Below, piece by piece: positions 3,243 through 25,218 of a stretch of DNA of 34,787 nt; position 1 is the first letter of the stretch; each line of letters opens with the position of its first letter. Made by a program: the position numbers and the translations under genes. The notes under the pieces were generated by a model that saw nothing but the letters and a program-made list of their open reading frames with translations, was not told the origin of the DNA and searched no databases. This DNA comes from a virus, in IMG/VR virus record IMGVR_UViG_3300043399_000792, positions 1 to 34,787 of that record; one strand, written 5' to 3'.

Positions 3243-6200
3243 ATGACAAACCGAATTCCGTTAATCATAAATGCAGGCACTGGACAAATCCAGGAGTTGC
3301 CTAGTGGTGATAACCTACTGCTGACCAACAATGATATCATTGGTGTTGGCAGCATTACAGCAGCCAATGGCATAGTCACCGGCGGCAATGTTGTAGCTAC
3401 TGGTAATGTCCAAGGCACATACTTTATTGGTAATGGTGCTTTGCTAACTGGACTCAATGTTGGCAGTGCTGGTAAAATTGCCAACGGAACTAGTAATGTA
3501 GATATTTCTACAATCAACGGGGCTGTTACTATTGCTGTGGCCGGAACACCCAACGTTGCAGTGTTTAATGGAAGCAATATCACAGTTGGCGCTTCAATTC
3601 TGCCAGCAGCCAACGTAACATATGATTTGGGTAGCCCAACTCGTCGTTTCAATGACTTGTATTTGTCGGGCAGCACTATTGATCTGGGCGGCGCAACTAT
3701 CAGCGCAAACGCCACAGCCGTTATAATTACTAACCCTGCAGGCGGTACATTTGTTTCGCAAGGTTCGTCTAGCGATATTGAAGCAACAACAGTTACAGCC
3801 AGTGGTAACATTCAAAGCACTGGTGGTATCTTTATTGGTAACGGTGCTGGACTGTTTGGTGTTGTTGCCAGTTCAAACGTTGGATCGGCACAAAAGATTG
3901 AAAACGGCAGCACACAGATGGATGTGCCAGTTTCTGGTGGCAACATCATTGCCAACATTGGCGGCGTAATTGGTGTTGTTGAAATCAGCACTGGCGGCAT
4001 CAGTACTACAGGTAACGTAACTGCTAGCTATTTGATTGGTAACGGTAGTCAACTTACTGGCTTGCCAGCCAGCTACAGCAATGCTGAAGTATCAACATAC
4101 TTGGCCAGTGGCACAAACTCTGCCAATATTGTAACCACAGCCAATATCAGTGGTCAGTACATTCTAGGCAATGGTAGCCAGCTCACTGGCTTGCCAGCAA
4201 CTTACACCAATTCTAATGTTGCTGATTACCTCCCAACTTATACTGGCAATTTGGTATCGCTAACCGGCGATGTTACTACAACAGCTAATATCAGTGGCGC
4301 ATATATTTTAGGTAATGGTAGTCAACTCACTGGCTTGCCAGCAACTTACACTAATTCGGACGTTGCAAACTATTTGGCCAGCGGCACAAACTCTGCCAAT
4401 ATTGTAACATCTGGTAACTTGTCTGGCGGCAACGTAGTGGCCACAGTTGGCACTAGTGCAGTGTTGTTTAGCAATGGCACAGCCACTTTGTCTTCGGATT
4501 ATGTCAGTGACTTAACTGGCGTAAACTTGTTCAAAGACGGCGACGCTCAACTTTATGCCAATGGCAATGTTCTAATCTATTCTGACTCCGGTACCACTAA
4601 CAAAACTTGGACTTTTGGCGCAGATGGTGTATTAGCTGCACCGGGCAACATTGATGCTACCGGTGACGTTACCGGTGCAAATATTCTAACAACCGGCCGG
4701 GTCTCAGCAACCGGTAATATAACTGGTGCCTACATTTTTGGTAACGGTAGTCAACTCACAGGACTGCCTCCAGTATATAACGATTCTAATGTAGCAGCTT
4801 ATCTGCCAACTTACAGTGGCAACTTGGCAAGCTTGACTGGCCCAGTTACAACAACTGGCAATGTCACAGGCGGCAACGTTCGTACTGGTGGTTTGGTTAG
4901 TGCTGCTGGCGGAGTACAAACTGCTGCCGCAGTCAGCGCCGCAGGTAACGTCACCGGTGGCAATATTGTTACAGCTAACTCTGTACTGTCGGCCAACAAT
5001 GTCAGTGCAGGCGGGAATGTCACAGGTGGTAATGTTATTACCACTGGATTTGTTAGTTCTCTAGGTAACGTACAAGCAGCCAACGTTAGAACACAAGGTA
5101 TTGTTAGCGCCGCTGGTAACGTTGTTACAGATGGTTACTTCGTTGGTAACTTTGCTGGTAACATCACTGGTAACTTGACTATTCCTGGGTCAAATACTCA
5201 AGTAGTTTTCAACACCAACGGCAACGCCGATGCGGTAGCCGGATTTACTTACAACAAAGACGCTAACACAATGACAGTGTTGGGTGTAGTTTCTGCACAA
5301 GCCAACGTTATTGCTGGTAACGTAGAAACGGCAGGAAATGTCACAGCAACTGGAAACGTAGTTGGTGGCAACCTAACAACAACCGGTGTTGCGATTGCAA
5401 CAACTGTCAGCGCAACAGCCAACATTGTTGGCGGTAATTTGACCACAGCAGGTCAAGTAGTTGCCACAGCCAACATCACTGGTGGCAATATTGGAACTAC
5501 TGGTCGTGTCAGCGTCGGTGGAAATGTTGACGCTTCAAATCTCAATGCTAGTGGCTTGAGTCTAAGTGGCAATGTATTAGCACCACTTAATACTGGCTTT
5601 GATATCACCACATCGGCCAACGTCACTGGCGCTTATATTTTAGGTAACGTTGCATTTGCTACTGGCATTCCTGCAACTTACGGCGACTCTAATGTTGCTG
5701 CTTACCTGCCAACATACACTGGTAATTTGGCCAGTTTAACTGGTCCTGTGACAACAACCGCCAACGTAACTGGTGGTAATGTCAACACCGGCGGTGGTGT
5801 ATCTGCTACAGGCGCAGTCACTGCTGGAACAACTGTCAACGCAACTGGTAATGTAACCGGTGGCAATTTGACCACAGCTGGACAAGTTAGTGCTACTGGA
5901 AACTTAGTAACCGGTGGAAATGCATTGGTTACAGGCTTTGTACAAGCCACAGGCAATGTCACAGGTGGCAACATTGTTACAACTGGTTTGATCACAACCA
6001 CAGGTAACGTTGCAGCAAACAATGTTACATCAACTAATGTGTTAGCATCAGGCCAAGTCAGTGCCACTGCCAACGTTGTTGGTGGTAATCTAAATACTGC
6101 TGGTGCAGTAAGTGCAACTGGCAATGTTGCAGGTGGAAACTTAATCACAGCCGGATTGGTGAGTGCAACTGGTGATGTTACTGGTGCAAACTTAACCACT

Positions 6201-9200
6201 GCTGGCGCAGTAAGTGCAACTGGCAATGTAGTTGGTGGTAACATCAACGCTGCTGGATTGAGCTTGAGTGGCAACATTATTAGCCCAATCAATACTGTTC
6301 AGAACATTACAACCACAGCCAATATCAGTGGTCAGTACATTATTGGTAACGGTGCTCTACTTACAGGATTGCCAACGGGATACAGCAATGCAGAAGTTGC
6401 AGCTTACCTACCAACATACACAGGTAATCTAGTCAGTCTAACTGGACCAGTGACAACTTCTGGAAATGTCACAGGCGGTAATATCAACACTGGCGGGGGA
6501 GTTTCAGCAACAGGAGCAGTCACAGGCGGCAGCTTTAGTACGACTGGTAATATTACTGGTGCCAATGTCACTGGCACCAATGTCAGTGCTAGTTTGGTTT
6601 CTGCAACTGGAAACGTAGTTGGTGGTAATCTTATCACCGGCGGAACTATCAGTGCATCTGGCGCCATTAGTGCTGCTGGAAATGTGTTGACAAACGGTAT
6701 TATCAGTGCCGCTGGTAACGTTGTTACTTCTGGCTTGTTTATTGGTAATTTCCAGGGTAACATTACTGGTAACATTAGTGTTCCTGGAGCAAACACGCAA
6801 GTATTGTTTAATAACAATGGTAATGTTGGTGCAGCACCTGGATTTACGTTTGACGCTGCGGCCAATGTTCTTAACGTGCCTGGCAACATTGTAGCAACAG
6901 GTAATGTCAGTGGTGGTAATGTTCTCACAGCTGGCTTAATTCAAGCTACAGGAAATTCTACTGCTGCCAACTTTGTAACAACAGGCGCGGTGCAAGCCAC
7001 GGGCAATTCTACTGCTGGCAACTTTGTAACTACGGGCGTAGTTCAAGCCACAGGAAACATTGTAGGTGGTAATTTTGTAACTTCAGGCATAGTACAAGCT
7101 ACAGGAAATATTGAAGCCACCGGTAATATATCTGGCGGTAATATTCTTACAACAGGAAGAATCAGTACAGTTGGTAATATTTTTGCCAACAATGTCATGG
7201 CAACATCCAACATTGGTGGCGGCAATCTTTATGCAGCAACTGATGCTTTGGTAGTTGGCAATATTACTGGCGGCAATATCATAACTAATGCTTTGGTACA
7301 AGCCGCCACATTGAACACCACTGGCAATGCAGTTATTGGTGGTGATTTAACAGTTAATGGCAATATCACATACATCAACGTAACCGACCTTAATGTTGAA
7401 GATCCTATTATTGGTCTAGGCCGCGGTCCCAATAACTCATCGTTGGTTACAAATGATGGCAAGGATCGCGGCGAACAGCTTTGGTATTTTAACACCGCTG
7501 GAAACGTCGAGCAAAGTGCATTTATTGGATATCAAGCATCAACTGGCAAGATGTTGGCCGCAGTATCTGCAGGCATTGCAAATGACATTGTAACAGTAAG
7601 CCAATATGGTAGTTTTGTTGTAGGTACACTTGAAGCTGCAAACGTTACAGCAACTACCAATATCAGTACTGGCAATATTTCTGGAACTGGTCAGTTCAGC
7701 ACACTGGGCAATGTTGTTGCGGCTAACGTAAACACTGGCGCATTGAGCTTGAGCGGAAACGTAATATCACCGCTCGATGTTACTGGAACAGTGACTGCTC
7801 AGAATTTGATTGCTACAGGTAACGTCAGCGCCACAGATATTGACGCATTTGCCAACGTTTCGGGCGGCAACCTTACAACCAATGGTTTTGTAACAGCAAC
7901 TGGAAATGTAACCGGTGGCAATATTCTTACCAGTGGATTGATTAGTGCCACAGGCAATGCCACAGCTGGTAACATTAACACAGCAGGTGCTGTATCGGCT
8001 ATAGGTAACATTGTTGGTGGAAATATTATTACCAGTGGTGTTAGCGGAAACATTAGTGGTGCCAACGTAATTTCTTCAACTACTTTGAGTGCCACTGCCA
8101 ACGTTGTTGGTGGTAATATTACTACTGCTGGTATAGTTACTGCAACTGGCAACATTGTAACTGGCGCTAATGCAATAATATCTGGATTTGTTCAATCAAC
8201 TGGCACAGTAACTGGTGGCAATATCAACACTGCTGGTGTTGTCAGTGCAACAGGTAACATCACCGGTGGTAATATTGTTACAGGCGGCGCAATATCGGCA
8301 ATTGGACTAGTTAATGCAACAGGTAACATCACCGGTGGAAACATTATCACTGGTGGACGAGTTACTGCCACAGGGAACGTAGCCGGCGGTAATATTATTA
8401 GTAGTGATCAAATCAGTGCAGCTGGCAACATTAATGGTGGTAACATTGTTACTCCTAATACAGTCAGCGCATTGTCAGTGGCAGCATCTGGCACAGTTAG
8501 CGCAGTTGGTAATGTTACTGGTGGTAACATCAACACTGGCGGTTTAATAACTGCTGCAGGAAATATCATTGGCGGAAATGTTACCACAGCAGGATTGTTC
8601 AGTGCAAGTGGATCAGTTGCAGCAGGAACTACTATCAGTGCAGCAGGTAATATCACCGGTGGTAACATTATTACCGGTGGTGTAATTAGCTCAACTGGTG
8701 CAATAACTGCACTGGCCAACATTACTGCACCAAACTTTATTGGTAACTTGATTGGTAATCTTGGTGCGCCTGGCGCCAATAGCCAGATCATGTTCAACCT
8801 TAATGGTATTATCAGTGGTGACACTGGGTTGACATATGACTTTACTACCAACGCACTCAGCGTTGGCGGTACATTGGCCACAAACAATGGTGGTGACCTA
8901 AACATTGATGGCCGAATTAGTGCAGCAGGCAATATCATCACTGGCACAGGAAACGTCAGTGGTGGAAACTTGCTAGGCACAGTAATCAGTGCTAGCGGAA
9001 ATGTCATTGGTGGAAATATCAGCACCGGTGGCTTAGTAACTGCTACTGGCAACGTCACTGGCGGTAACATTGTCACAAGTGGTGCAGTGTCAGCAACTGG
9101 ACAAGTATCAGCAACAGCCAACGTTATTGGTGGCAATATCAGCACTGGTGGCTTAGTTACTGCAACTGGTAACATCACTGGTGGTAACATTACCACAGCT

Positions 9201-20946: not shown

Positions 20947-20954
20947 TATTTATG
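20947..20954 (-). promoter_or_regulatory. T4-type late promoter on the minus strand for the gp14/gp15/Nudix operon
   Basis: Read on the minus strand this is CATAAATA, followed by seven bases and then ATG at 20939. Spacing as in T4 would place the transcription start at or next to the ATG, leaving no room for a Shine-Dalgarno. Confidence 0.6.
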
Positions 20955-20960
20955 GGAAGG

Positions 20961-20989
20961 TTGACCAATATTTCTGATCCTGCTATAAT
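20961..20989 (+). promoter_or_regulatory. Extended -10 sigma70-type promoter (early type)
   Basis: TTGACC (20961-20966), 17-bp spacer, TATAAT (20984-20989) with TGC just before it. GCAT follows at 20994-20997, and its A is the A of the ATG of the next gene. It lies back to back with the minus-strand late promoter at 20947-20954. Confidence 0.88.
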
Positions 20990-20995
20990 TTAGGC

Positions 20996-21274
20996 ATGAA
21001 AGTAGTTAAGTTAAACCGCAGATTTCGACAATTCAAAGAACATGGGCATGTTGTGGCCTTGCGATTTCACAGCGGCTACAGCGATCAAGTTCGGGCAATA
21101 GAAAAAGTATGCCGAGAAAAGCTTCGCGGTGGTGGCTGGTTGCGTGAGCATGACTGGTACAGTTATTATGGCAAGTCCCGTGATGGCTTTGCTCGCTCCT
21201 ACTGGATCACGTTTCGCAGGGAATCTGATCTTACTTTAGTATTACTTTCTGTTGACTTGACCAAAAATTCTTGA
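20996..21274 (+). CDS. Conserved-looking phage protein of unknown function (92 aa)
   Basis: 92 aa, basic, starting MKVVKLNRRFRQFKEHGHVV. It has no recognisable catalytic motif. It is rich in Arg, Tyr and Trp (WLREHDWYSYYGKSRDGF, SYWITFRRESDL) and predicted as a small alpha/beta protein; the C-terminal strand LTLVLLSVDL is hydrophobic but too short for a membrane segment. I recall similar small proteins in T4-like phages, always hypothetical. No Shine-Dalgarno is present: the ATG sits 6 nt after a consensus TATAAT, so the mRNA is probably leaderless. Its 3' end contains the promoter of the next gene. Early expression by host polymerase is inferred. Confidence 0.65.
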   Translation: MKVVKLNRRFRQFKEHGHVVALRFHSGYSDQVRAIEKVCREKLRGGGWLREHDWYSYYGKSRDGFARSYWITFRRESDLTLVLLSVDLTKNS

Positions 21275-21285
21275 AATGCTATAAT
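21257..21285 (+). promoter_or_regulatory. Extended -10 sigma70-type promoter (early type) for the 21305 gene
   Basis: TTGACC (21257-21262), 17-bp spacer, TATAAT (21280-21285) preceded by TGC. The conserved GCAT is at 21289-21292. A start at A21291 gives a 14-nt leader containing AAGGAG 6 nt before the ATG. An overlapping TTGACT at 21252 has a poor 22-bp spacer. Confidence 0.88.
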
Positions 21286-21304: not shown

Positions 21305-22438
21305 ATGAAAACAGCCACAATCAAACCCTTGAATCCCCGTAGCCCAGATACCAAATATGTGGGCGAAGAGCCACTGTGGCGTACCCAACCCACAGACAAT
21401 CGCTTTACTGTTTTGAGTCGTGCTTTCAATTGGTACAATTACTTCTACGGCAAAAAAGACGCCAAGGACATGATTGCTGCCTATCTGGAGCGTCAAGATC
21501 GTGCTCGAGACGCTAAGAAAATTCGTACTCTTAGCGACAGTCAGATTCGACTCACAACTGGCTGGCTGTGTCGCATGAGTGACATGGGCTTGCGGTTGAA
21601 TGAGCATGAGCAGATCAAGTTGGATAACATGATTGCTGAACTGCTGGCTATTAAAGATGCACCCAAGGTGGAAGTGGACAATGCTGAACCTGAAGTGCCC
21701 AAAACCACAATCCAGGACCGACTGCGTGAAAAAGTGTCAGAGTGCCTGGGCGAACTTGACGGCTTGTTTGACGAATTTGTTGTAGCCGGAGCCAAGCTCA
21801 ATGCTGATTACAAACCTGTGAGTCTGATGCGTAGTATGAACATTGCTCCGCAGATGATCGGCCAAATTCGCGACACATGGACTCGTAAAATGGCTGAGTT
21901 TGAAGAAGCTGTTGCCGGCAAAGATGCGGATCTTGTCAAGGCCTACGACTTCATGACCAAGACTCAACTCAAGAACTGCATAAAGTTCTGTGAGCTTGTG
22001 CTGTCTGACTGCGGCAGCTATGTTCAGATCAAGAAAGTTGAACGCAAACCGCGCAAAGTCAAGCCGGTGAGTCCAGAAAAACGAGCAGCCAAATTCAAGG
22101 TGTTGATGGAATTTGCTGAGCTCAAGCTCAAAGGCCTACCGGCAGCACAGTTGGTTGATAAAGCCGAAGCATGGCTGTACGACACAAAGAAACGCAAATT
22201 GATCCACATTGTAGCTGACGAGTATGCCAAAGCGTTTACGATCAAGAACAATGCTGTGGTAGGCTTTAGTACAGTGGAAACAATGCAAAAAACTGTGCGT
22301 AAACCAGCCGAAACACTCAAGGCCATACAGGCCGCAGGCAAACCGGCAGCACGTAAGATCTTCAAGGAGCTCAGTACCACTGAAACTGCTTGGAACGGTC
22401 GCGGAACTGAAAACATTATGGTACTGCGAGCTTGGTAA
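21305..22438 (+). CDS. Uncharacterised phage protein, Lys-rich (377 aa)
   Basis: 377 aa with AAGGAG at good spacing before the ATG. I do not recognise a named family. It is mostly helical and highly charged. Residues about 30-60 contain FTVLSRAFNWYNYFYGKKDA, which I recall from hypothetical proteins of T4-like phages. The middle has a long acidic/amphipathic helix (RLREKVSECLGELDGLFDEF), then a basic linker (KKVERKPRKVKPVSPEKRAA, about residues 240-260). The C-terminus ends in TAWNGRGTENIMVLRAW. The basic linker and helices would suit a nucleic-acid-associated protein, but this is only a guess. It is transcribed from its own early-type promoter and precedes the radical SAM gene by 12 nt, so it probably shares its transcript. 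Confidence 0.65.
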   Translation: MKTATIKPLNPRSPDTKYVGEEPLWRTQPTDNRFTVLSRAFNWYNYFYGKKDAKDMIAAYLERQDRARDAKKIRTLSDSQIRLTTGWLCRMSDMGLRLNEHEQIKLDNMIAELLAIKDAPKVEVDNAEPEVPKTTIQDRLREKVSECLGELDGLFDEFVVAGAKLNADYKPVSLMRSMNIAPQMIGQIRDTWTRKMAEFEEAVAGKDADLVKAYDFMTKTQLKNCIKFCELVLSDCGSYVQIKKVERKPRKVKPVSPEKRAAKFKVLMEFAELKLKGLPAAQLVDKAEAWLYDTKKRKLIHIVADEYAKAFTIKNNAVVGFSTVETMQKTVRKPAETLKAIQAAGKPAARKIFKELSTTETAWNGRGTENIMVLRAW

Positions 22439-22450
22439 AATAAGTAAGGG

Positions 22451-23362
22451 ATGCATCACATCCCCACCAAGGTTGATTTTTATATAACCAACGTCTGCAA
22501 TTTAACCTGCGAAGGTTGTAATCGATTCAACAATTACGACTTTCGTGGGTGGCAACGTTGGAGCGATTACTCTGAAGAGTATCGACGCTGGAGTCAACTT
22601 GTATCACTCAAAGCCGCCACCATCATGGGTGGCGAGCCCTTTTTGAACCCTACTCTTCCCGACTGGGTCCGGGGCATCAATCAATATTTTGGTATTGAAG
22701 TGCAAGTGCTTACAAATGGTACACGTTTCCTGCAGGCCCGAGAGCTTTACAAAGAATTGCTGTACACCTCCAGCAAAACCAAAGCACCAAATCACATTGG
22801 AGTGAGTCTTCACAATGCAGACCAAGCCATGACAATGGATCAAGAAATACGTAGCTTTTTGCAAGGCCCCGTTGAAGTGTTTCCCAAACAACATGCTAGA
22901 AACATGTTCAAATCTGATTACGTCTACATTGATCGCAATGGTATCATGGTCAATGTTTACATGGTAAACAAATTTACCAACTCAACACTGCGCCAAGTCA
23001 CGGTGGTCAACAGTACTGGTACCAGCAAACAGTTTGCATTGCACAACAGCAATCCTGACAAAGCACACAACAACTGTGCCTTTGCAACATTCAAGAGTTA
23101 TCATTTTATTCGTGGAAAACTGTACAAATGCGGCCCGGTGGCACTCCTGCCTGAGTTTGATCAACAACACAACATCATGATGAGTGACGAAGATCGTGCA
23201 ATTATGAATTCTTATCGACCGCTAGACCCCGACAACTTCGAAGCTTACCATCAAGAATTTTTTGAGAACCTGGACAAGCCAATACCACAATGTAAATTTT
23301 GTCCCGAGTCCTATGTGTTTACAACAATAAAACCAGTACGCAAAGGACTTCAAGATGTTTGA
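22451..23362 (+). CDS. Radical SAM enzyme with C-terminal Cys cluster
   Basis: 303 aa. C16-x3-C20-x2-C23 in YITNVCNLTCEGCNRFNNYD is the iron-sulfur ligand motif that binds S-adenosylmethionine. IMGGEPFLNP (GGE at 60-62) is the SAM amino-group motif, and QVLTNGTR fits the barrel core. Four further cysteines, C209, C227, C281 and C284 (the last two CKFC), resemble a SPASM/Twitch-type auxiliary cluster, which in that superfamily often marks peptide- or protein-modifying enzymes. The substrate is unknown. The 8-nt overlap with the next gene (ATG inside the stop region) implies translational coupling. AAGGG lies too close to the ATG, and a 6-bp hairpin (22448-22453 with 22459-22464) encloses the start codon, so initiation may be controlled. 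Confidence 0.9.
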   Translation: MHHIPTKVDFYITNVCNLTCEGCNRFNNYDFRGWQRWSDYSEEYRRWSQLVSLKAATIMGGEPFLNPTLPDWVRGINQYFGIEVQVLTNGTRFLQARELYKELLYTSSKTKAPNHIGVSLHNADQAMTMDQEIRSFLQGPVEVFPKQHARNMFKSDYVYIDRNGIMVNVYMVNKFTNSTLRQVTVVNSTGTSKQFALHNSNPDKAHNNCAFATFKSYHFIRGKLYKCGPVALLPEFDQQHNIMMSDEDRAIMNSYRPLDPDNFEAYHQEFFENLDKPIPQCKFCPESYVFTTIKPVRKGLQDV

Positions 23363-24407
23363 AGAATCATTCTACCAAACACAACAAAGCGAAGTGTTTG
23401 TAAAATCAAACTGCATGCAACACGAGCATGCTGTAGCAAACTTATTTGCCAGCCTGTTAAGTAACTTAGGATACACAAACACAAGGCCAAGAACATGGCA
23501 ACGCCAAGATCGCACTGTGATAGTTTGTTTGGCTGATGATTTTAGTGTGTGTCGACAATCGTACAGTGTGCGCCCAGCACAGTGGTTTGATGCTAACACC
23601 ACTGTGCTTACCGACAACTATTTTGCACTGCCTTCGGACTACAGAATTTTACAATTACCCACTAGTTATTTTGGGGTGTTTAACTATGTACCTGAAGATT
23701 CGCATTACCGACCAGACCGTCGATTCCATCTCAGTGTCAATCGTCTTGATGCGCAAAGGGAGTTGATTCTGTTGGAGTGGCTGAAGCAACTTGGGGACAT
23801 TGGCAACGACTACATCAATTTCAATGCCAGAATAGCCAATGAAATTGGCACAGTTGAACAAGCCCAACTGTGTTTTGACACATATTGGCAACAGCTAGAT
23901 CAACTGCACAACACTGATTATCATGCACAGTACCTTCAGGCACGTGATCTAGTTCCTATTAGGAATCACAACTTGTCTATAGAACAAGCCAATGTCAGTG
24001 CCTATGTTAATGTGGTTGTAGAAACTTATGCAGGTGATGCGACCATTGGATTCAGTGAAAAAATATTTCGGGCATTGGTAACACCGGCACCATGGACAGT
24101 GTATTCAGCACGTGGTGCAGTGTCTTACTTGCGGAAGCTGGGGTTCGATGTTCTAGATGACATAGTTGATCACAGTTACGATAATCAGTTTCAAGATACT
24201 TCGTATTTTGGTATATCGAAAATTCGTAAATTTATCCAAACAAACCAGGAAATTTACCAGCGACTTGTGGGCATGGACTTACAAAATGTCGCAGATCGAT
24301 GCAAAATTGCTGCTCAACATAACCAGCAACATTTGGCCAGTCTGGCCCAGCGTTGGCCACAGGACTTTGCTGCTTGGCTACCCGGTGTAATAGAAATAAT
24401 TCAATAA
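23355..24407 (+). CDS. Glycosyltransferase-like protein (SEK-x-F motif)
   Basis: 350 aa. The key region is near residues 230-275: VVVETYAGDATIGFSEKIFR, ALVTPAPWTVYSARG, SYLRKLGFDVLDDIVDHSYD. This matches the pattern of phage and bacterial GT-B/fucosyltransferase-like proteins (ET...TEK-x-(F/W)-K-x-(I/L)...P...G-x-x-x-x-L-(R/K)-x-LGF-x-x-F...DESYD). One difference is that R-A-L replaces the usual K-P-(I/L). The N-terminal 200 residues are divergent, with FGVFNYVPEDSHY and HLSVNRLDAQRELILLEWLK. It overlaps the radical SAM gene by 8 nt, so the two proteins probably work in one pathway. Donor and acceptor cannot be read from the sequence. Its stop TAA forms part of the late promoter of gp13. Confidence 0.72.
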   Translation: MFEESFYQTQQSEVFVKSNCMQHEHAVANLFASLLSNLGYTNTRPRTWQRQDRTVIVCLADDFSVCRQSYSVRPAQWFDANTTVLTDNYFALPSDYRILQLPTSYFGVFNYVPEDSHYRPDRRFHLSVNRLDAQRELILLEWLKQLGDIGNDYINFNARIANEIGTVEQAQLCFDTYWQQLDQLHNTDYHAQYLQARDLVPIRNHNLSIEQANVSAYVNVVVETYAGDATIGFSEKIFRALVTPAPWTVYSARGAVSYLRKLGFDVLDDIVDHSYDNQFQDTSYFGISKIRKFIQTNQEIYQRLVGMDLQNVADRCKIAAQHNQQHLASLAQRWPQDFAAWLPGVIEIIQ

Positions 24408-24427: not shown

Positions 24428-25189
24428 ATGAGCGAAAACACCCTGCCCGAATTAAAACAACAGCTAATTCAGTACTGCCAACTTCAGTTAGGCGATCAAA
24501 TCATTGACCTTGAACTGGATCCGGCGCACTACGAAGCTGCCTATCAAAAGACGCTGGGCAAGTATCGCCAACGAGCTAACAATGCTTATGAAGAAGCGTA
24601 TATCTTCATGGAGCTCATACAAGATGTCAATATCTATACGTTACCACAAGAAGTTGTCAGCGTTCGTCAGGTGTTTCGTAGAACTTTTGGCAATAGCCAA
24701 GGCCCATTTGCTTCAAACTTTGACCCATTTGCCCAGGCCAGCGTAAACGTTTATCTCATGAACTTCAACGTGGCCGGCGGCCTAGCAACCTATGATTTCT
24801 ACACACAATATGTTGAACTGGCTGCTAGAATGTTTGGCGGGTTCATGAACTACACTTGGAACCCAGTGACTAAAAAATTGCAATTGGTGCGTGACCCCAA
24901 GGGCACAGGCGAAAATGTGTTGCTGTGGACATATCAACTCAAGCCCGAAATTCAACTGTTGGCAGATTTCCAAATTAGTCAATGGATCCGAGACTACATG
25001 GTTGCTAACTGCAAAATGATCATTGGCGAAGCCCGTGAAAAGTTTGGTACTATTGCCGGACCGCAAGGCGGCGGTCAACTCAATGGCGCTGCACTCAAAG
25101 CCGAAGCCAAAGAGGCCATGACCGAATTAGAAGACCAGCTCACTCGCTATGTTGATGCTAGTCAGCCACTGACTTGGGTAATTGGCTAA
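24428..25189 (+). CDS. 13: gp13-like neck protein
   Basis: 253 aa. The start is ATG 24428 (MSENTLPELKQQLI), with CGGAG upstream and a late promoter before it. The frame is open further upstream to 24353, but that overlaps the previous gene. Resemblance to T4 gp13: ELKQQLIQYCQLQLGDQIID and LELDPAHYEAAYQKTLGKYR match T4 [20 protein letters not shown] with PDQIYDCIQRALELY. The C-termini also agree in layout (LEDQLTRYVDASQPLTWVIG here; REELYLLDPPFGILVG in T4). WIRDYMVANCKMIIGEAREK matches T4 WVKDYATALAKELNGQ. gp13 and gp14 form the neck that seals the filled head. Here the two genes are about 3.5 kb apart and on opposite strands. Confidence 0.85.
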   Translation: MSENTLPELKQQLIQYCQLQLGDQIIDLELDPAHYEAAYQKTLGKYRQRANNAYEEAYIFMELIQDVNIYTLPQEVVSVRQVFRRTFGNSQGPFASNFDPFAQASVNVYLMNFNVAGGLATYDFYTQYVELAARMFGGFMNYTWNPVTKKLQLVRDPKGTGENVLLWTYQLKPEIQLLADFQISQWIRDYMVANCKMIIGEAREKFGTIAGPQGGGQLNGAALKAEAKEAMTELEDQLTRYVDASQPLTWVIG

Positions 25190-25218
25190 TTGACACAGTG
25201 TTGTAGTCCTGCTATAAT
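25190..25218 (+). promoter_or_regulatory. Consensus extended -10 sigma70 promoter (early type)
   Basis: TTGACA (25190-25195), exactly 17 bp, then TATAAT (25213-25218) preceded by TGC. The -35 begins immediately after the gp13 stop. The shared GCAT is at 25222-25225, with its A being the A of the ATG at 25224. No Shine-Dalgarno is present. Confidence 0.92.

Follow-up and report, generated by a model that had tools for sequence, protein, structure and literature searches.

SpeY is a spectinomycin biosynthesis enzyme that acts on a sugar. The label "Twitch Radical SAM Dehydrogenase" comes from the PDB title of its structures (7wzv, 7wzx, 7x0b). BtrN, of butirosin biosynthesis, is a 2-deoxy-scyllo-inosamine dehydrogenase that performs a two-electron oxidation of an aminocyclitol and has a four-Cys auxiliary cluster (PMC9012708). 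Among phages, radical SAM genes were termed highly unusual in a 2010 report on Campylobacter phages, in which CP220 and CPt10 were found to carry a module of radical SAM and amidinotransferase genes with no chemistry assigned (PMC2853527). Radical SAM cassettes and glycosyltransferases were described in 2020 in pelagimyophages, and that report proposes for the glycosyltransferases a role similar to the host-surface-glycan one considered below (PMC7029224). Clusters of phage radical SAM, glycosyltransferase and amidinotransferase genes are already known; a SpeY/BtrN-type assignment, a recurrent coupling to an orphan GT-B enzyme, and an early-type promoter inside a virion cluster were not found in the openly licensed papers searched.

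The locus described here lies in an IMG/VR virus record of 34,787 bases from an aquatic virus of bacteria, analysed over its entire length and referred to as the window. Its genes include those for neck protein Ad2 (24428), sheath (26796), tail tube (30191) and head closure (32329), the presence of which marks it as a myovirus whose gene content is broadly that of a T4-like phage. The two overlapping ORFs of the original prediction have the extents and the overlap first given for them, and they belong to a unit with the following features:

21257..21285, + strand: sigma70-like promoter (TTGACC-N17-TATAAT, the -10 preceded by TG), 19 nt 5' of the phrog_11903 gene
21305..22438, + strand: opening gene of the unit, encoding 377 aa, phrog_11903 without assigned function (PHROG E 2.5e-59)
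22451..23362, + strand: radical SAM protein with predicted twitch domain, 303 aa (PF04055; model; SpeY fold match)
22496..22519, + strand: CX3CX2C, motif of the SAM-binding cluster (Cys16, 20, 23), invariant in 28 relatives
23075..23302, + strand: predicted twitch region with the four auxiliary-cluster Cys (209, 227, 281, 284), invariant in 28 relatives
23355..23362, + strand: 8-nt overlap of the radical SAM and glycosyltransferase genes, from the ORF coordinates
23355..24407, + strand: 350-aa predicted GT-B glycosyltransferase, its family undescribed (predicted fold; no family match)
24054..24068, + strand: SEKIF motif, putative donor-binding site, whose E and K never vary among 13 diverse phage paralogs
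24404..24410, + strand: ATAAATA, core of a T4-late-type promoter lying over the glycosyltransferase stop codon and probably serving the next (virion) gene, Ad2, 5' of which 34/53 relatives carry one
24428..25189, + strand: head-tail adaptor Ad2 (virion neck), a late gene that follows the unit and is not part of it (phrog_211, E 4.8e-28)

Nearly every relative has the phrog_11903 gene next to that for the radical SAM protein, and the junction between the radical SAM and glycosyltransferase genes ranges among the relatives from -67 to +2 nt, mostly -11 to +2. Among relatives, selection on both genes is purifying (dN/dS about 0.1-0.25). Elsewhere in the window, a 195-aa ORF at 390-977, adjoining phrog_30607, has a weak match to phrog_4603 (alpha-2,3-sialyltransferase; E 1.6e-5).

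The first protein of the pair matches PF04055 at 34.4 bits against a cut-off of 29.5 and contains exactly seven Cys (16, 20, 23, 209, 227, 281, 284), spaced as CX3CX2C (16/20/23), C209-x17-C227 and C281-x2-C284; none of the seven varies in an alignment with 28 relatives, the most distant of which shows 28% identity. A radical SAM protein with CX3CX2C and four further Cys, as originally predicted, is thus borne out, but the description of these Cys as SPASM-like is not, since four extra residues correspond to the one-cluster twitch arrangement. A SPASM peptide maturase, with two auxiliary clusters, was rejected on the same count and on the absence of PF13186 at E values up to 1. By its Cys arrangement, the protein is predicted to be a twitch enzyme with a single auxiliary cluster. 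A model built from 27 sequences (pLDDT 90.9, pTM 0.89) matched SpeY in the PDB (Foldseek E 2.7e-10; VIA Z 20.8 over 243 residues), far ahead of BtrN (12.8), SuiB (11.8), viperin (10.9) and SkfB (10.5), in Z lists that served as second looks and do not by omission exclude a family. The two best structural matches, SpeY and BtrN, are both twitch dehydrogenases. The sequence profile also aligned with SpeY (E 8.9e-14), with a second aligned stretch in the twitch region, and a twitch-only profile found one match in the PDB, again SpeY, at a weak E of 0.32.

The phage protein resembles SpeY in predicted whole-chain fold, CX3CX2C and the twitch CxxC, with C-x17-C in place of the C-x18-C of SpeY; the two share 17% identity, however, and SpeY comes from an antibiotic cluster, not a phage. 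With BtrN it has in common the twitch, the four-Cys auxiliary set and first-cluster Cys at identical numbers (Cys16/20/23; PMC9012708), at a Z of 12.8, although BtrN is bacterial, 16% identical and shorter in chain (246 residues in 4m7t). Fold alone is no proof of reaction, as viperin, MoaA and RiPP maturases have the same core. Viperin itself was set aside, with NCBIfam NF038283 scoring 34.3 bits against a cut-off of 180 over the core only, and the PADLOC pVip match (5.1e-10) covering residues 8-96 only; likewise, the match to phrog_2076 (QueE) is confined to residues 15-127, again the core. A pattern search of bacterial genomes for relatives, an insensitive one, gave 78 matches with none confirmed. 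We infer that the radical SAM protein probably oxidises an alcohol on a sugar or cyclitol.

The second protein carries SEKIF, LGF and HSYD at residues 234, 262 and 273, so the motifs taken earlier for a glycosyltransferase-like signature are present, and its predicted fold is that of a glycosyltransferase. Searches of Pfam, PHROGs, NCBIfam and PADLOC assigned it to no family. Its model (pLDDT 77.5, pTM 0.81) found SdgB as best Foldseek match (E 6.4e-5) and gave VIA Z scores of 10.8 to both SPY and T4 beta-glucosyltransferase; nearly all of the top Foldseek ranks and of the VIA matches, at Z 8-11 over ~250 residues, are glycosyltransferases. By this predicted fold it is a GT-B glycosyltransferase of an undescribed family. 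A profile built around SEK from 13 phage paralogs had one PDB match, an alpha-1,3-fucosyltransferase (9s6a), aligned on TEK at a weak E of 0.089. The protein is like GT10 alpha-1,3-fucosyltransferase and T4 beta-glucosyltransferase in its predicted GT-B fold and, weakly, in the E...TEK alignment to 9s6a, but 6-14% identical to any solved glycosyltransferase listed and without a match to any Pfam glycosyltransferase family. Assignment to GT10 by Pfam profile was rejected, the window protein matching nothing in Pfam at E up to 1, and Pfam searches of its relatives gave no glycosyltransferase-type family at E up to 5. A tblastn search with the protein against phage records returned no match, and single jumbo-phage records contain up to 13 matches to its profile. 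Relatives at 39-41% identity occur in jumbo phage contigs (L127 9061-10602, L135, L137, L145), where they are followed by a further glycosyltransferase paralog and by an AsnB-like amidotransferase (in L127, PF00733 at E 2.6e-23). These relatives lack a radical SAM neighbour, so the pairing is not universal.

How regularly the two genes occur together was counted at one site, flanked by phrog_11903 and Ad2, in 52 dereplicated loci: 22 have both, 29 the radical SAM gene without the glycosyltransferase, and one the glycosyltransferase alone. The co-occurrence expected of a functional pair therefore holds from one side, with the radical SAM gene present in 22 of the 23 glycosyltransferase loci, and fails from the other, with 29 of the 51 radical SAM loci lacking the glycosyltransferase. 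Mapped on the radical SAM tree, glycosyltransferase presence requires 5 changes, compared with 16.8 in shuffles. A GDSL/SGNH hydrolase belongs to the unit of some relatives, as an extra gene in one of the 22 loci with both genes and in four of the 29 without the glycosyltransferase. Tandem radical SAM copies occupy the same site in L073 (1029-3543) and L038 (5556-6864); one of the two pairs has a GDSL/SGNH hydrolase in between, and the first L038 copy is shortened. Two independent accessory genes, sharing a promoter by chance and having no common pathway, would account for a glycosyltransferase in just 22 of 51 radical SAM loci with 5 changes on the tree, for the hydrolase that fills the glycosyltransferase slot in other relatives, and for the 39-41% homologue that stands beside an AsnB-like gene, away from any radical SAM gene, in other phages. 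We nevertheless regard this as unlikely, as the glycosyltransferase is found at the site without the radical SAM gene only once in 23 loci, and the coupling recurs among distant relatives of both proteins.

Those distant relatives place the pair in a wider context. Among 54 dereplicated loci, the radical SAM gene directly adjoins a glycosyltransferase relative in 28 and a StrB1-like amidinotransferase in 17; 11 loci have both neighbours and 20 neither. Distant relatives of both proteins are encoded by genes overlapping by 4 nt in L178 and L179, the latter pair in a run with a nucleotide-sugar epimerase, and one neighbourhood of radical SAM relatives is a cluster of glycosyltransferase, aminotransferase and inosamine amidinotransferase genes. 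The amidinotransferase profile has as its best PDB match 1bwd, the inosamine-phosphate amidinotransferase StrB1 (E 1.6e-61); the gene is absent from the window and occurs in 9 of the 14 tested records, among them two (G003 and G005) that have both genes of the pair. Several side observations concern its placement. Three-gene runs of amidinotransferase, radical SAM and GT-B-type genes, mostly with overlaps of a few nt, occur in many viral contigs (L230, L234, L235, L237, L239, L240, L242, L252, L256 and L258, at around 3900-7030). In two records that have the gene pair of the window (L274 4318-6747, L275 5120-7530), the StrB1-like amidinotransferase is apart from the radical SAM gene and belongs to a run of small ORFs, itself conserved, that adjoins structural genes. 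In L181 (4552-6798; Marine virus AG-345-D19) a radical SAM relative directly follows what by eye resembles a carbamoyltransferase divided between two ORFs. The seven-Cys pattern is found in 79 of 92 distant radical SAM ORFs, with a spacing mostly of x15, not x17, and their function may differ from that of the near relatives.

The Campylobacter phage module is comparable in that phage radical SAM genes stand beside an amidinotransferase (PMC2853527), and CP220 also has two genes with nucleotide-diphospho-sugar transferase domains. CPt10 gp92 matches the radical SAM profile (2.2e-12) and has the seven-Cys spacing. The module differs in its type of glycosyltransferase, and the radical SAM gene that immediately follows the amidinotransferase in CP220 lacks the seven-Cys pattern.

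The promoters of the unit and of its neighbours are of two kinds. In T4-like phages, sigma70-like promoters of this type have early or middle roles, and promoters with the ATAAATA core late ones. The promoter at 21257..21285 has 11 of 12 sigma70 consensus bases and an extended -10; a similar extended -10 promoter at 25190-25218, with 12/12, precedes the exonuclease/dNMP-kinase genes. Upstream of phrog_11903 in dereplicated relatives, TGNTATAAT was found in 23/41 and ATAAATA in 0/41, whereas ATAAATA lies 5' of Ad2 in 34/53 and of the sheath gene in 18/27, with TGNTATAAT in 0 at both (backgrounds 0.6% for TGNTATAAT and 0.9% for ATAAATA); the loci are related and the counts hence not independent, yet the contrast is still clear. 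As further observations on the window, another extended -10 sigma70-like promoter (20961-20989) precedes a 92-aa ORF at 20996, and early-type units alternate with late-type virion genes. ATAAATA occurs at 954, 3217, 24404, 26762, 32764 and 33264 (+) and at 20947 (-), the last 2 nt from a same-strand gene start; 6 of 8 copies lie 6-28 nt 5' of a same-strand gene start, in zones making up 1.7% of the sequence.

On this basis, the unit would be expressed early or in the middle period and the surrounding virion genes late. Placement in a "tail cluster" hence holds by position only, as the unit has its own sigma70-like promoter. Since the neck and sheath genes have T4-late-type promoters, co-expression of the unit with the virion is doubtful and gene position becomes poor evidence for a virion target, which removes the ground for taking the fibres, by position, as natural acceptor. 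A virion protein or peptide that is modified by the radical SAM protein, in the manner of a SPASM/twitch maturase, and then glycosylated would nonetheless fit the location of the unit between virion genes, the peptide maturases SuiB (Z 11.8) and SkfB (Z 10.5) among the structural matches, the protein glycosyltransferases SdgB and HMW1C among those of the second protein, and the virion glycosylation known in mycobacteriophages, as cited in PMC12619734. We consider it improbable: the promoter type disfavours a virion protein, being early at the unit and late at the next gene, and the want of a precursor ORF disfavours a peptide. The small peptide substrate envisaged earlier does not exist in the unit, which is too tight for one (intergenic gaps -67 to +25 nt), the single auxiliary cluster also argues against a maturase, and the neighbours of distant relatives include sugar enzymes, with no peptide substrate recognised among them.

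An early-type promoter, shared in type with the exonuclease/dNMP-kinase unit, is also what hypermodification of phage DNA would call for, the radical SAM enzyme altering a base or base-linked group and the glycosyltransferase adding a sugar; T4 beta-glucosyltransferase is among the best fold matches (Z 10.8). This proposal is disfavoured, and we give it little credence, because a PF00303 thymidylate-synthase-type hydroxymethylase is absent from 10 records, which comprise the window plus nine relatives (five of these are 236-364 kb; records may be incomplete), with control genomes positive. A search for TET/JBP also gave nothing, but there the controls were silent too. The resemblance to QueE, moreover, is limited to the core.

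We give somewhat better than even odds to the view that the pair serves an aquatic T4-like phage as a sugar-modifying unit, expressed early or mid infection and with a host-surface glycan as likeliest acceptor. In favour of this view are the lead of SpeY over all other structures, the GT-B fold, the sugar-related genes beside distant relatives, the hydrolase in some units and the promoters; against it are the 29 of 51 radical SAM loci that lack this glycosyltransferase and the absence of PF01370 and PF00483 genes from the window. Families, Cys arrangement, predicted folds, pairing and promoter sequences were computed, and from these a reaction, an order of steps, a timing and an acceptor may be proposed. 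The unit would be transcribed early or mid infection from its host-type promoter. The radical SAM protein would cleave SAM at its first cluster, and the resulting radical would take hydrogen from a hydroxyl-bearing carbon of a sugar or cyclitol; the second electron would pass to the twitch cluster to yield a ketone, in the two-electron manner in which SpeY and BtrN oxidise an alcohol. The GT-B enzyme would use a nucleotide sugar as donor and act either after the radical SAM enzyme, by attaching its product to the acceptor, or before it, by assembling the glycan that is then oxidised. With a host-surface glycan as acceptor, the outcome may be a change of receptor or the exclusion of rival phages. 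The earlier notion of an unusual sugar thus appears reasonable, since the predicted fold makes the second protein a glycosyltransferase and the pair recurs.

As to the acceptor, a host-surface glycan is preferred on indirect and weak grounds, and by analogy would be the likeliest, because these phages have many glycosyltransferase paralogs and epimerases and because of the parallel with pelagimyophages. The latter are also T4-like aquatic phages with both gene classes, but their genes lie in a host-recognition region, and the accessible part of the 2020 report assigns them to no family and describes no pairing (PMC7029224). PF01370 epimerases are present in 7 of 10 records searched, while the PF00483 nucleotidyltransferase is absent from all 10; the 34.8-kb window has a gene of neither family. 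A more specific version, which we offer tentatively as a rather doubtful extension, is that T4-like aquatic phages possess an early, aminoglycoside-like sugar pathway that makes a radically oxidised sugar, guanidino-bearing in some phages, and transfers it to a macromolecule of the host or of the phage. Its members would be the amidinotransferase, the twitch radical SAM sugar dehydrogenase and the orphan GT-B enzyme, the last two of which are those of the window.

Overall, these findings suggest that such phages tailor an unusual sugar and attach it to some acceptor. They bring to notice a glycosyltransferase family that is absent from the family libraries searched. Phage radical SAM genes mostly still have no assigned function, and placing this widespread family, with its recurrent glycosyltransferase and amidinotransferase partners, among the sugar-oxidising twitch dehydrogenases would provide a chemical hypothesis that can be tested.
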